DNA of 28,079 nt from a virus. The translations under genes and the position numbers were made by a program. The number at the start of each line of letters is the position of its first letter. Position 1 is the first letter of the stretch. The notes beneath the pieces are model-generated. The model did not search any database, had not been told where the DNA came from, and was given only the letters and a program-made list of their open reading frames with translations. The DNA lies in the IMG/VR virus record IMGVR_UViG_3300042312_000050, positions 1 through 28,079 of that record; one strand, 5' to 3'. Below, in pieces: positions 21,733 to 26,245 of this stretch.

Positions 21733-21969
21733 TTATTTCAAAATATTTCTTTTAGCGATTCTATCATTGAATGCTATTTTGTCAAGCATATCAGGACAAC
21801 TGTCCGCGATACGGTCAAGTTCATAGTCATTTGGATAGTGTCTTAATGCACCACGCGCACGATCACGGACGATGCTCGGCACCCTAGGCGTCTTGCCTGG
21901 ATCGCATAATTCCTCAAGTAATTTCTTACCTTGCTTTAGTGCGCGGTATCTTTCGTCTGGTAGTGTCAT
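21733..21969 (-). CDS. BPSL0761-like conserved protein
   Basis: A 78-residue protein beginning MTLPDERYRALKQGKKLLEE and continuing CDPGKTPRVPSIVRDRARGALRHYP (split here by positions 22-46). This is the pattern of the BPSL0761 family of small bacterial proteins, whose function is unknown. The length fits. It has a ribosome binding site (TGAGGTAAC) and ends 9 bases before the UvsX start, so it is likely in the same operon. Confidence 0.7.
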   Translation of the reverse strand: MTLPDERYRALKQGKKLLEELCDPGKTPRVPSIVRDRARGALRHYPNDYELDRIADSCPDMLDKIAFNDRIAKRNILK

Positions 21970-22023: not shown

Positions 22024-23040
22024 TTAGCCCTTCTGCTGTCTAGCACGGATCATCGCTAAAATGTCCTGTGCCTTATCGCTAGAAGTACTCTTAGGAACTA
22101 CTACGGGTTCACTCTTTGTTTCTGCTTCTTCTTCAACATCATGGACATCCCCGTGTCCATCTACTGTTGCCTTTTTTGCGCTTACAGTAAGAGTTGTAAC
22201 CTCAGTTACATGAGGGGGTGCTAACTGTGATGCACTAGTTGCAGGAGCCTCAAGACCATATGGACGATAGTATGCGCCCCACTTGTCATTATCATAAGGC
22301 TTACCATCTACTGAAGCCTCAAACATTTCTTTGATGACACGTAGTTCGCTTTCGCTTGGCTTCTTGGGCAAGAAGTCAGCAAGATTGAATAGACCATGTG
22401 CTTCAATAGCAGCCTGCTCTACTTCAGTCAACGGGCTTTCACGGCGTGCCCAGTTACTAGTGCTATAATCAGCATAACCACCCTTGCTAGTCTTTTTGAC
22501 GTTGAAATCAAGACCACGCTGATAATCAGTTGGCAATTCTTGAATTTCAGGATCCATCAAACTTGCCTTGATGATTGTGAAAATCTGCGGGCTGATGACG
22601 AAACGACGAATCGGATTCGCAGGAGTTACGTCATTGCCGATCGGATTCTGACGAACAAAACCTTGAAACAGATAACTACGCTTCTTCCAATATTTATTAG
22701 CCATATCTTTGAGCGTATCATCCTTATACCAAGGACGAACTTCTGCTAAGATAGGACAGTTATCACCGTACATTTCTACGCATGGGACTTGAACGACTAC
22801 CTGCTTCATGTTGGGATCACCTTTGACGCCATTAAACGGCAACTTGATGATCTGTCGTTCTACCCAGAAAAATGTATTGCTTGAATCTTTGTCTGGAAGA
22901 AAACGGATAGTGGCAGTAGTGCCTTCTTCCATATTCCAGTGTGGGTAGATTGCGTTATCTGATTGGGTGCGTTGACCCTGACCTGATTTCTTACTTTCTT
23001 GTGCCGCGATACGGGCACGGATATCTGCTAGACTTGCCAT
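22024..23040 (-). CDS. 32: single-stranded DNA-binding protein, gp32-like
   Basis: A 338-residue gp32-type protein. The N-terminal SLADIRARIAA segment serves as the cooperativity region. The OB-fold core contains WNMEEGTTATIRFLPDKD (36-53), FFWVERQIIKLPF (57-69) and VPCVEMYGDNCP (84-95). A low-complexity acidic segment (VHDVEEEAETKSE) precedes the C-terminal DILAMIRARQQ. It coats single strands and organises replication and recombination proteins. Only two cysteines are seen, whereas T4 gp32 uses three cysteines and a histidine for zinc, so zinc binding is probably lost or altered. It has a strong promoter and a structured leader. Confidence 0.93.
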   Translation of the reverse strand: MASLADIRARIAAQESKKSGQGQRTQSDNAIYPHWNMEEGTTATIRFLPDKDSSNTFFWVERQIIKLPFNGVKGDPNMKQVVVQVPCVEMYGDNCPILAEVRPWYKDDTLKDMANKYWKKRSYLFQGFVRQNPIGNDVTPANPIRRFVISPQIFTIIKASLMDPEIQELPTDYQRGLDFNVKKTSKGGYADYSTSNWARRESPLTEVEQAAIEAHGLFNLADFLPKKPSESELRVIKEMFEASVDGKPYDNDKWGAYYRPYGLEAPATSASQLAPPHVTEVTTLTVSAKKATVDGHGDVHDVEEEAETKSEPVVVPKSTSSDKAQDILAMIRARQQKG

Positions 23041-23121
23041 ATATAATCTCCTATGTTGTAAATGCCTATGTTGAGCCTAAATGTGTTTTATGTTGAGTTG
23101 TCTAGGAGACAACTAACACAT
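23041..23121 (-). promoter_or_regulatory. gp32 mRNA leader with hairpin and CAACATA repeats
   Basis: The leader of about 80 bases has a 7-bp hairpin (23096-23102 with 23108-23114) whose loop, UCCUA in the RNA, is complementary to UAGGA in the ribosome binding site (23049-23053). Between them lie three copies of CAACATA (23052-23058, 23067-23073, 23089-23095). T4 gp32 represses its own translation through a leader pseudoknot followed by an unstructured tract, so this layout may be the equivalent. Confidence 0.6.
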
Positions 23122-23127
23122 CAAGAT

Positions 23128-23155
23128 ATTCTACACGAATATCATGCTGTGTCAA
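23128..23155 (-). promoter_or_regulatory. strong sigma70-type promoter for gp32
   Basis: On the minus strand a consensus TTGACA and TAGAAT are separated by 16 bases. A 7-bp inverted repeat (GATATTC/GAATATC, 23125-23131 and 23137-23143) overlaps the -10 box and may be an operator. Confidence 0.8.
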
Positions 23156-23188
23156 TATTATATATCACCGAACTATGTGCAAAAAATA

Positions 23189-26100
23189 TTACTTTAATCC
23201 CGAAAGTGTTTTTATTCTATCCAATTCAACACTTTCGCTTGCGCCAACTAGTTTACCAATGTTATTATTTTTAACTTTTTCGGTTGGGCCTAATTGACCT
23301 ACACGCTTTTGATTAGCGTCTAAATCTTCTTCTACTTCTTCTTTAGGCATTGTCTTCTGTGAATAATCACGTTGCATTGCAGAAGGCGCAGTAGGCATTG
23401 TCTTCTGTGAATAATCACGTTGCATTGCAGAAGGCGCAGTTTCATAGTTACCTGATTGAATATGTGCCTTGATATGAGAATGGATTCGTTCTGGATTATA
23501 TTTTTCATCAGGAGGTAGATTGAAGACAGGGTAATCTGATCCACTACGAATAGAAAATGAGATAGGTTTTCCGCCTGCTTGTGCTAGAGGAGGTACAATA
23601 TATGTGCCTGGCTTGAGTGCCTTGTATCCAGCAAAAGATGCTAACTTCTTGGCTAACCAACCTGCGCCTTGATGTAAAAGACCTTCTTCAACATCTTCTT
23701 TGTGGAATGTATCTAGATATTGTTGTGCTTTATCGGGAGATACCATGTATCTTCCACCATCGTTTGATGCTGCTTTTTGTAGATATTCTTTACTCCAGTT
23801 TGCACCTTCTGGTCTTTTTGATTGAATCTTGACCGGTTGCAATTCAGGAGCAGGATCTGGTTTTGTTTGTGATTGTATATGTTGTGCCAAAGATGGTTGC
23901 CCAGGTACAACTCTTTCATCTAGTTCTTCTTCATTAAATTTGTCTTTTACCCAGGCGCCTGCATTTTTGACACGATTCACGACTGGGCGTGATTGTAAGT
24001 TATAACCATATTTTGTATAACCCATATCAGTCATTTGTTTATCCGCTGCACCTTGCTGTGCTTGATAATTTGCTTTGGCTTGTGCAGGTGTTATCGCTAG
24101 TTGTCTATCAACTTCAGCCTTTGATTCTGGGTCAAGTGCATCATACTGCTTTTTAAATTCTTCTGGATTACGTTTTTGATCTGCTTGAAGTTTGCCTGGC
24201 ATGTCTCTGTAATAAACTTTATTAAGGTCTCTTGCAGCACCGCCCATAGCAGGCATCATTCTATCAACACCTTTTGACAATAGTTTTGTAGCATCAATGT
24301 TACCTTCTTTGTCAGTAGATGCTTTGATATCTTTTTGCATGCCTTTGTCAACTGCATAACCTTGTGACATGCTATCAAAATCTTGTTTTGGTATTTTGAG
24401 TTCGCCGCCCTGCTTTTGCATTTGTGCAGATTGTTGGGCAGTATTTAAATTGTCAATATCTTCATCCAAATTGTCGTCTGTTTTATCTCTGGCAGCCTGT
24501 TCAGCCTTTTTACGATTACGCTTAACGAACCCAACACTTACTTGTAAATAGTCAGCAAGTTCTTCATCGGTCATTTTTTCAATAGGAACATCGCCGCTTC
24601 CCTCATCCAAATCAAATGCTTTAAGATTTGACTTTTCAGTGTTTTGATTATGTTTTAATGTCATAGCACCAGGTGCTTCATCTAACATTTTATCAGCAGG
24701 TACTGCTAATGATGCTGTAGTAGAATCTATTTTTCCTTCAAGATGGATGTTTAATTTGTCCATCAATATTTGTGCGACTTTATCTGTATTGACTCCATAA
24801 CCCTTTTCTGCCAATAATTCGGCATACTCATCTATTGAACTATAGATATCATCACTACTTAACCCTTCTTCTCCGCCTAAACTATCTGCTATAACTGATG
24901 CAACTTCTTGGCTGTTAGCCATTTTTTTTTGACTTAACTCATTTGCTTCTGCATATCTTTCATATGGTCCAGGTGTGGGTGGTTTTTTAGGTGGCTCTTT
25001 TTTTTCGGAATTTGGCTCAGATTTTGGCTCAGATTTTTGTTTTGGCACATATCGTATTTCACGTTTAGTGCTGAGAGGTTTTTTTACCTCTACTTCATCG
25101 TATTCATTTCCATCTTGGTCAATAAATCTGTGTTGTATAGTTTGTTCATTAGTTGGTGTAACATCTTCTGCACCGCCTTCTCCGGCATCACCTGGTGTGT
25201 CGCCGTCAGTCTCTTCGCTTGCTTCTCCGCCGTCACCACCTTCAATTAAACTTTGTGCCCATTCGTCTAATTCTTTAACTTCATTCATTTCAGTTAAGTT
25301 CTTTGACAAACGATTTAATATCGGTAATACACTTTCAATACGTGGGTCTAGTGTTTCTTGTACAAATAATTCGTTTAAGTTATTACCTTCATCATTTTCT
25401 TCATTTAGTACAGGGGTGTAACTTTCAAAATACTTTACATACCCGCGATGAGTAGTCATGCGACTCAATGTTTCGCGTAGGTTATTATAGTGCAGCACGC
25501 CTTCATTAATCAAACGCTGTGTTGATTCGTTGAATTGACTATTATTTTTTGTCGCACGGACAAATCCAGCCATTTTTGTATATTCTTCAACTAAAGATGT
25601 GATATGTTTTGCCTTATCGTCATATGGTGTGCCACCTTCTGCGATATGACGGGCATATACTCTTGCAAGACCTGGGCGATTAGTTGGTAATAAGAAACGT
25701 TCACCGGAAAGGTTTTCAACAAATATTCTGTGAACATTGCGAAATCTTTGTTCACCTTCTTCAATATTGCGATTATGTTCAATAATAATTTTAACTGTTG
25801 GAACATTATCGCTGAAACTTGTCTTTTTACCTAAAGGATAGTATCCTTCACTAATGTTATCTTTTTCTTGTTGCATTTTGTTTCTCGCCCTTTTTTGCAT
25901 ATCAAATTGAAAATGATCTGACTTTCTTATTTCCATCTCACCTACTTTATTTAAAACCCAGGGTTTAATAAACTTATGAAACATTTGAAATTCTGGGCTT
26001 TTAACTACCTCTCCATCTACCCAGATAGTAGTAGTTATGATATCTTTTCTGGGTTTTTTATCCATTGAAACATAAGCAGGATCAGACTTGAGGTCATTTT

Positions 26101-26245
26101 CATCACGTAAAGTAAATCCAATAGTTAATGCTTTTTCTGGATCTAATGTCTTTTTTCCTGTTCGGTCCAGAGCATATGGTTCATAACCGCGATTATGCAA
26201 CTCATCATATAACTCTGCCATTTTTCTTTCTAAACTTATAGCCAT
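23189..26245 (-). CDS. large hypothetical protein (1018 residues), possible virion or assembly protein
   Basis: Residues 1-300 form a folded region with segments such as KPRKDIITTTIWVDGEVVKS and ENLSGERFLLPTNRPGLARV. Residues about 330-460 are low-complexity, rich in glutamate, glycine, serine and proline (including a KSEPKSEPNSEKK run). Residues 460-1000 are mostly helical and polar. Several EE-(V/E)-(D/E) acidic clusters recur near the C terminus (EEELDERV, KEDVEEGLL, KEEVEEDLD). A 16-residue segment is exactly duplicated near 935-966. No known domain is recognised. It lies directly after the terminase gene, has a late box 5 bases before ATG 26245, and may start instead at codon 9, which has AGAAAGA upstream. 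Confidence 0.75.
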   Translation of the reverse strand: MAISLERKMAELYDELHNRGYEPYALDRTGKKTLDPEKALTIGFTLRDENDLKSDPAYVSMDKKPRKDIITTTIWVDGEVVKSPEFQMFHKFIKPWVLNKVGEMEIRKSDHFQFDMQKRARNKMQQEKDNISEGYYPLGKKTSFSDNVPTVKIIIEHNRNIEEGEQRFRNVHRIFVENLSGERFLLPTNRPGLARVYARHIAEGGTPYDDKAKHITSLVEEYTKMAGFVRATKNNSQFNESTQRLINEGVLHYNNLRETLSRMTTHRGYVKYFESYTPVLNEENDEGNNLNELFVQETLDPRIESVLPILNRLSKNLTEMNEVKELDEWAQSLIEGGDGGEASEETDGDTPGDAGEGGAEDVTPTNEQTIQHRFIDQDGNEYDEVEVKKPLSTKREIRYVPKQKSEPKSEPNSEKKEPPKKPPTPGPYERYAEANELSQKKMANSQEVASVIADSLGGEEGLSSDDIYSSIDEYAELLAEKGYGVNTDKVAQILMDKLNIHLEGKIDSTTASLAVPADKMLDEAPGAMTLKHNQNTEKSNLKAFDLDEGSGDVPIEKMTDEELADYLQVSVGFVKRNRKKAEQAARDKTDDNLDEDIDNLNTAQQSAQMQKQGGELKIPKQDFDSMSQGYAVDKGMQKDIKASTDKEGNIDATKLLSKGVDRMMPAMGGAARDLNKVYYRDMPGKLQADQKRNPEEFKKQYDALDPESKAEVDRQLAITPAQAKANYQAQQGAADKQMTDMGYTKYGYNLQSRPVVNRVKNAGAWVKDKFNEEELDERVVPGQPSLAQHIQSQTKPDPAPELQPVKIQSKRPEGANWSKEYLQKAASNDGGRYMVSPDKAQQYLDTFHKEDVEEGLLHQGAGWLAKKLASFAGYKALKPGTYIVPPLAQAGGKPISFSIRSGSDYPVFNLPPDEKYNPERIHSHIKAHIQSGNYETAPSAMQRDYSQKTMPTAPSAMQRDYSQKTMPKEEVEEDLDANQKRVGQLGPTEKVKNNNIGKLVGASESVELDRIKTLSGLK
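23345..23440 (-). repeat. perfect 48-bp tandem duplication inside the 1018-residue gene
   Basis: Positions 23345-23392 and 23393-23440 are identical. The unit is a multiple of three, so the frame is kept and the protein carries TAPSAMQRDYSQKTMP twice. Complete identity at all codon positions indicates a recent duplication. Confidence 0.95.

Follow-up and report, generated by a model that had tools for sequence, protein, structure and literature searches.

Conserved leader hairpins upstream of the gp32-type gene of RaK2-like jumbo phages as a putative operator for autogenous translational control

In the window, that is, the whole stretch of 28,079 nucleotides of viral DNA analysed here, the leader of a gp32-type single-stranded DNA-binding protein (SSB) gene probably acts in cis as an RNA operator of autogenous translational control. 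The leader carries a 7-bp hairpin, P2, which, judged by covariation in a sister lineage, is a genuine selected sense-strand RNA element of gp32 leaders. In the mechanism that we propose, gp32 present in excess of the available single-stranded DNA would bind its own leader, with P2 as the point of nucleation or as a boundary, and would spread cooperatively along a repeat track, thereby covering the ribosome site. In the window's lineage an optional layer may be added, in which CUCC of the P2 loop touches GGAG of the Shine-Dalgarno (SD) sequence and lowers basal translation. The gene, the hairpin and the ribosome site are located as follows, with the evidence for each in brackets.

22024-23040, minus strand: gene for the gp32-type single-stranded DNA-binding protein, 338 amino acids (matches to PHROG 1192 and PHROG 224)
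23047-23053, minus strand: UAGGAGA, the gp32 SD region (sequence)
23114-23096, minus strand: P2, a 7-bp hairpin, AGUUGUC-UCCUA-GACAACU (sequence; the homologous hairpin covaries in the sister lineage)
23103-23109, minus strand: UCUCCUA, loop and stem top of P2, complementary to the SD region (sequence; energy compared with shuffles; invariance of CUCC)

The SSB gene was recognised through profile matches to PHROG 1192 (E 2.6e-65) and PHROG 224 (E 7e-9), together with a Pfam gp32 match (E 2e-4) lying under the Pfam cut-off. Protein searches place it among the jumbo phages PA5oct, RaK2, 121Q, GAP32, Atu_ph07 and others, and many relatives, named phages included, share a gene order in which a structural protein gene precedes the SSB gene and a gene of the UvsX/RecA type lies on, or close to, its 3' side. 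The leader directly abuts the gene on its start-codon side (minus strand). Scans of IMG/VR by protein, and with two linker patterns from which the hairpin was left out, yielded 412 leaders. Of the 175 pattern matches, 174 precede gp32 (174 of the 174 that could be scored), and the remaining one lies at a contig end. The relatives are RaK2/121Q/PA5oct-like jumbo phages, with many leaders coming from metagenomic contigs of no known host, and they fall into group 1 (window-like, 81 unique leaders), group 2 (71), group 3 (11) and many more distant leaders. These sequences are related, so that the counts given below represent non-independent events, and the permutation tests ignore the tree. A search of Rfam 15 with the window and nine relatives' loci returned no family above the gathering threshold, the best subthreshold match having an E of 4.6.

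Elsewhere in the window, between the terminase and gp32 genes, positions 23189-26245 (minus strand) hold the gene for a virion-type protein of 1018 amino acids, far longer than the gene of about 430 amino acids found in the same place in RaK2 and 121Q; the C-terminal part of this protein includes a tandem duplication, with TAPSAMQRDYSQKTMP occurring two times. Another promoter-like site of the form TTGACA-16-TAGAAT, besides the one in the gp32 leader, is located at 21758-21785 (minus strand), just before uvsX and within an ORF of 78 amino acids.

A preliminary description of this DNA had reported a 7-bp hairpin at 23096-23114 exposing UCCUA, and such a hairpin is indeed present on the minus strand (AGTTGTC-TCCTA-GACAACT), 56 to 74 nt upstream of the gp32 start codon. 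Specifically, in group 2 the P2 stem occurs at the same place in 38 distinct versions, with each position paired in 97-100% and double compensatory changes at seven of eight positions; following the swapping of arms between phages, a permutation that ignores the tree, pairing reached at most 0.92. The non-Watson-Crick pairs of group 2 comprise 41 G-U versus 0 A-C, indicating that the fold of the sense RNA, rather than a DNA cruciform or the antisense strand, has been selected. In group 1 conservation extends to the sequence of the stem, and the 11 distinct P2 sequences differ by a single G-C to A-U exchange (L065) plus U-G wobbles.

In addition, group 2 contains a small covarying hairpin near the SD, P3, with the loop CCA. 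A loop-loop contact between P2 (AUAGG) and P3 (CCA) in this group was rejected by inspection, showing many mismatches and no covariation. As regards the window, a predicted outer stem would pair UGUGUU with AACACA around P2; permuted partners pair equally (13.85 vs 13.63 +/- 0.20), and we consider this stem possible at most. Group 3 leaders (for example L198 and L210) show a UUCG-capped hairpin followed by GCGACAAC, and the loop of their first hairpin, UAAC, is the one known from the T4 gene 43 operator.

Upstream of P2, the leader contains a promoter and a second hairpin, P1, which the preliminary description had missed, as it had the AGGC(A) motif of the linker discussed below.

23114-23154, minus strand: P1, a long hairpin spanning the promoter (folding z; pairing within the lineage; double changes)
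23128-23133, minus strand: -10 box TAGAAT, spacer 16, predicted start near 23121 (sequence)
23150-23155, minus strand: -35 box TTGACA of the sigma70-like promoter (sequence; kept in most relatives)
23159-23166, minus strand: degenerate remnant GATATATA at the site of the relatives' T4-late-like ATAAATA box (position; box not intact in the window)

The sigma70-like promoter, TTGACA-16-TAGAAT, ends directly upstream of P2, which therefore lies near the 5' end of the predicted transcript. P1 folds with a z of -4.7 in the window; for this region, 96% of the group 1 leaders and 86% of those in group 2 have a z under -2. Among the 29 distinct sequences of group 1, the paired fraction of cells amounts to 94%, whereas permutations that ignore the tree never exceeded 84%; double changes are seen in 9 of the 17 pairs. 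Non-Watson-Crick pairs are again biased towards G-U over A-C (60:20 and 62:37), so that an RNA element is preferred to a DNA operator or cruciform, the bias being milder than that of P2. Since P1 spans the promoter, it is contained in RNA only when transcription starts upstream of it. Immediately before P1, a T4-late-like box of the ATAAATA type is present in 69 of the 70 group 2 leaders and in 68 of the 80 from group 1, with 1.0 expected in each, and in nearly all relatives this predicted box ends 2-3 nt before the start of the -35 box and P1. The exact TATAAATA is missing from the leader of the window, which has the degenerate form only. In CBB, a relative, a gp55-like sigma and ATAAATA late promoters have been reported (PMC5259590). 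Moreover, a subclade (L040-type) has lost the -35 box and kept P1, which supports a putative role of P1 in longer transcripts.

Stems of this kind lie over the -10 box in some distant lineages, one of which (L565) shows a perfect palindrome of 16 bp across the -10 box of its predicted gp32 promoter. P1-like stems flank the -10 box in distant lineages, and in two of these leaders (L447, L561) the stem is followed by a T-rich run, as if a terminator for read-through RNA had been built around the promoter.

Hairpins at the 5' end of an mRNA can also confer stability, and purely mRNA-stabilising 5' hairpins are the main rival to autogenous control. According to this explanation, the 5' end of early transcripts would be capped by P2 and that of late or read-through ones by P1, protecting or processing the message by blocking 5'-end-dependent decay, with no feedback by gp32. 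The position of P2 where the sigma70 transcript is predicted to start, the spacing of the late-like box from P1, the constraint on P1 at the RNA level and the free stem sequence of P2 in group 2, where pairing is kept, are all as this explanation would have them. However, it accounts neither for the gene-specific AGGC repeats of the linker nor for the conserved P2 sequence and CUCC of the window's lineage, and we judge it rather unlikely.

The autogenous operator that we favour would include the linker between P2 and the start codon, in which the following motifs were located.

23089-23095, minus strand: CAACATA, copy 1 (sequence)
23075-23078, minus strand: AGGC motif 1 (UUUAGGCUC) (enrichment of AGGC in gp32 leaders)
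23067-23073, minus strand: CAACATA, copy 2, followed by GGC (sequence)
23064-23067, minus strand: AGGC motif 2 (AUAGGCA) (enrichment of AGGC in gp32 leaders)
23052-23058, minus strand: CAACATA, copy 3, running into the SD (CAACATAGGA) (sequence)

The three CAACATA copies noticed earlier between hairpin and ribosome site are present, and their clustering is not due to chance, because at the rate of the whole window, where 6.65 would be expected on both strands of the 28 kb, such a stretch should contain about 0.005. Their suggested function as the track for cooperative binding is not supported in that form: at least two copies occur in only about 1% of leaders, and the repeated motif that is conserved is AGGC(A). 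Strong dereplication left 68 gp32 leaders, of which 40% contain AGGC(A) at least twice; among the controls, which were intergenic leaders of other genes on the same contigs, the share is 1% (p 1e-10). Likewise, repeated 5-mers reach about twice the shuffled expectation in gp32 leaders versus 1.1 times in intergenic controls. The spacings of the linker repeats peak at 10-11 nt, with another peak at 21 nt, the exact period needing care as the intergenic controls also show an excess at 9-11 nt (37 observed vs 13 expected). In the window the successive units read UUUAGGC, AUAGGC and then AUAGGAG, which is the SD itself. The AGGC motif is not universal, being missing from 121Q and RaK2, while group 2 mostly has P3 instead; other repeats (AGGCUAAUAU, UUUAGCACAA, AAAUU) are found in some lineages. 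The T4 UUAAA motif (TTAAA) showed no enrichment over the controls after strict dereplication. One distant leader (L565) contains AAATT about six times ahead of the SD, recalling the UUAAA track of T4.

Linker length is 51-59 nt in group 1 and 36-59 nt across relatives, the median distance from the end of P2 to the AUG being 56 nt in group 1 and 45 nt in group 2. The intervening stretch had been called otherwise unstructured; the linker of the window does not bear this out, as it is predicted to fold better than shuffles (z -2.4), and the group 1 mean is neutral (z -0.14). Alternatively, the linker motifs might be ribosome standby or SD-like sites, with AGG pairing with the 3' end of 16S, or the target of another repressor, and P2 a spacer. 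In favour of this, the AGG core of the repeat resembles an SD, and in the window the series of units ends with the actual SD (CAACATAGGA). The leaders of other genes on the same contigs do not carry the repeats, whereas a site for ribosomes in general, or for a global repressor, should turn up in other places as well, which makes this explanation improbable.

The complementarity between the loop UCCUA (23107-23103) and UAGGA (23053-23049) was confirmed and extends to 7 nt, UCUCCUA (23109-23103) with UAGGAGA (23053-23047); in the window, the duplex energy of the loop with the downstream sequence is better than that of 98% of shuffles (p=0.02). In group 1, CUCC in the loop is invariant and GGAG in the SD is nearly always kept, while the bases 3' of CUCC vary. 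CUCC is also invariant in every hairpin-independent linker-pattern match that reaches P2, and it persists in one leader (L225) that lacks a clear hairpin. All this would suit a switch in which the SD is occluded through pairing with the loop of P2, and in which gp32 binding or melting toggles between the two states. On the other hand, the loop/SD helix measures just 4-5 bp in most relatives (p 0.05-0.18 vs shuffles), the match is partly lost in one leader whose SD is AAGGAAA (L039), and the stem of the same lineage is almost as invariant as the loop. No compensatory changes between loop and SD were found in group 1, because both sides are fixed there. In groups 2 and 3, which retain P2 or equivalent hairpins (with loops such as AUAGG and AUGGU), the match is absent. 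Thus, the comparison of relatives that had been proposed as a check on compensatory changes revealed conservation without covariation, in one lineage only, and pairing of loop and SD as the switch itself appears improbable. A contact between loop and ribosome site, conserved in one lineage, is possible and weakly supported by these data.

In T4, gp32 first binds a pseudoknot at the 5' end of its message and then, cooperatively, a less structured stretch lying across the ribosome site, and so represses the translation of its own gene (PMC535899, PMC3014915); in the T4 gene 32 leader, a structured part of about 28 nt is followed by more than 40 nt of less structured sequence, with UUAAA/UAAA repeats over the ribosome binding site (PMC535899). 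The leaders described here resemble the gene 32 operators of T4, T2 and RB69 in preceding a gp32-type SSB gene and in having a structured 5' element and, after it, short repeats along a track that is longer than 40 nt (here about 45-55 nt) and extends over the ribosome site (PMC535899, PMC3014915), a layout that stays while the leader sequence diverges. They differ in having a plain hairpin in place of the H-type pseudoknot, AGGC(A)-type in place of UUAAA repeats, and P2 directly at a sigma70-like promoter, with P1 and, in the sister lineage, P3 as extra elements. No significant T4-like H-type pseudoknot was found, group 1 having just the long-range loop/SD match without covariation. A candidate pseudoknot in the leader of the PA5oct-like Pseudomonas phage Ettore, good by eye only, was rejected (p=0.19 vs shuffles); this leader (L235) has a candidate hairpin, AGUUUUGC..GCAAAACU, with a loop CUAACCC matching the downstream GGGUUUAG.

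Other known elements share single traits with these leaders. The gene 43 operator of T4 and RB69 is likewise a plain hairpin without a pseudoknot, about 40 nt before the start codon, which continues over the ribosome binding site (PMC3014915), but it belongs to another gene and repressor, and no common conserved loop is found in the window's lineage. The STAXI motif is a structured element near SSB and DNA-handling genes (PMC2864571); it is a tandem pseudoknot, possibly acting as single-stranded DNA (PMC2864571), whereas the excess of G-U over A-C pairs in the present hairpins points to sense mRNA. We infer that the leaders would work like the T4 gp32 operator. Membership of the T4 operator family is not claimed, because the pseudoknot and the UUAAA repeats were looked for and not found. 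The T4-related control first envisaged for this leader thus retains a selected hairpin and a T4-like layout, while its loop/SD switch is weak and its CAACATA track unsupported.

A more far-reaching reading would make these leaders an undescribed and widespread class of SSB operators in RaK2-like jumbo phages. Promoter choice would select the fold, either late P1, with UGUGUU in its 3' arm, or early P2; gp32 would spread along AGGC repeats of about 10-11 nt and stop translation; and in the window's lineage the P2 loop would also hold the ribosome site. We regard this complete scheme as unlikely.

In conclusion, do relatives of gp32 that lack the pseudoknot also regulate their own translation? 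Published work on T4 has not settled this (PMC535899, PMC3014915). With hundreds of leaders from a distant and abundant phage group, combining a covarying hairpin with a gene-specific repeat track, this question becomes directly testable, and the leader set represents a natural mutagenesis series for studying how an SSB without sequence specificity recognises the mRNA that encodes it. The preserved hairpins suggest that these phages may possess an on/off control comparable to the classic one of T4, and differently built.
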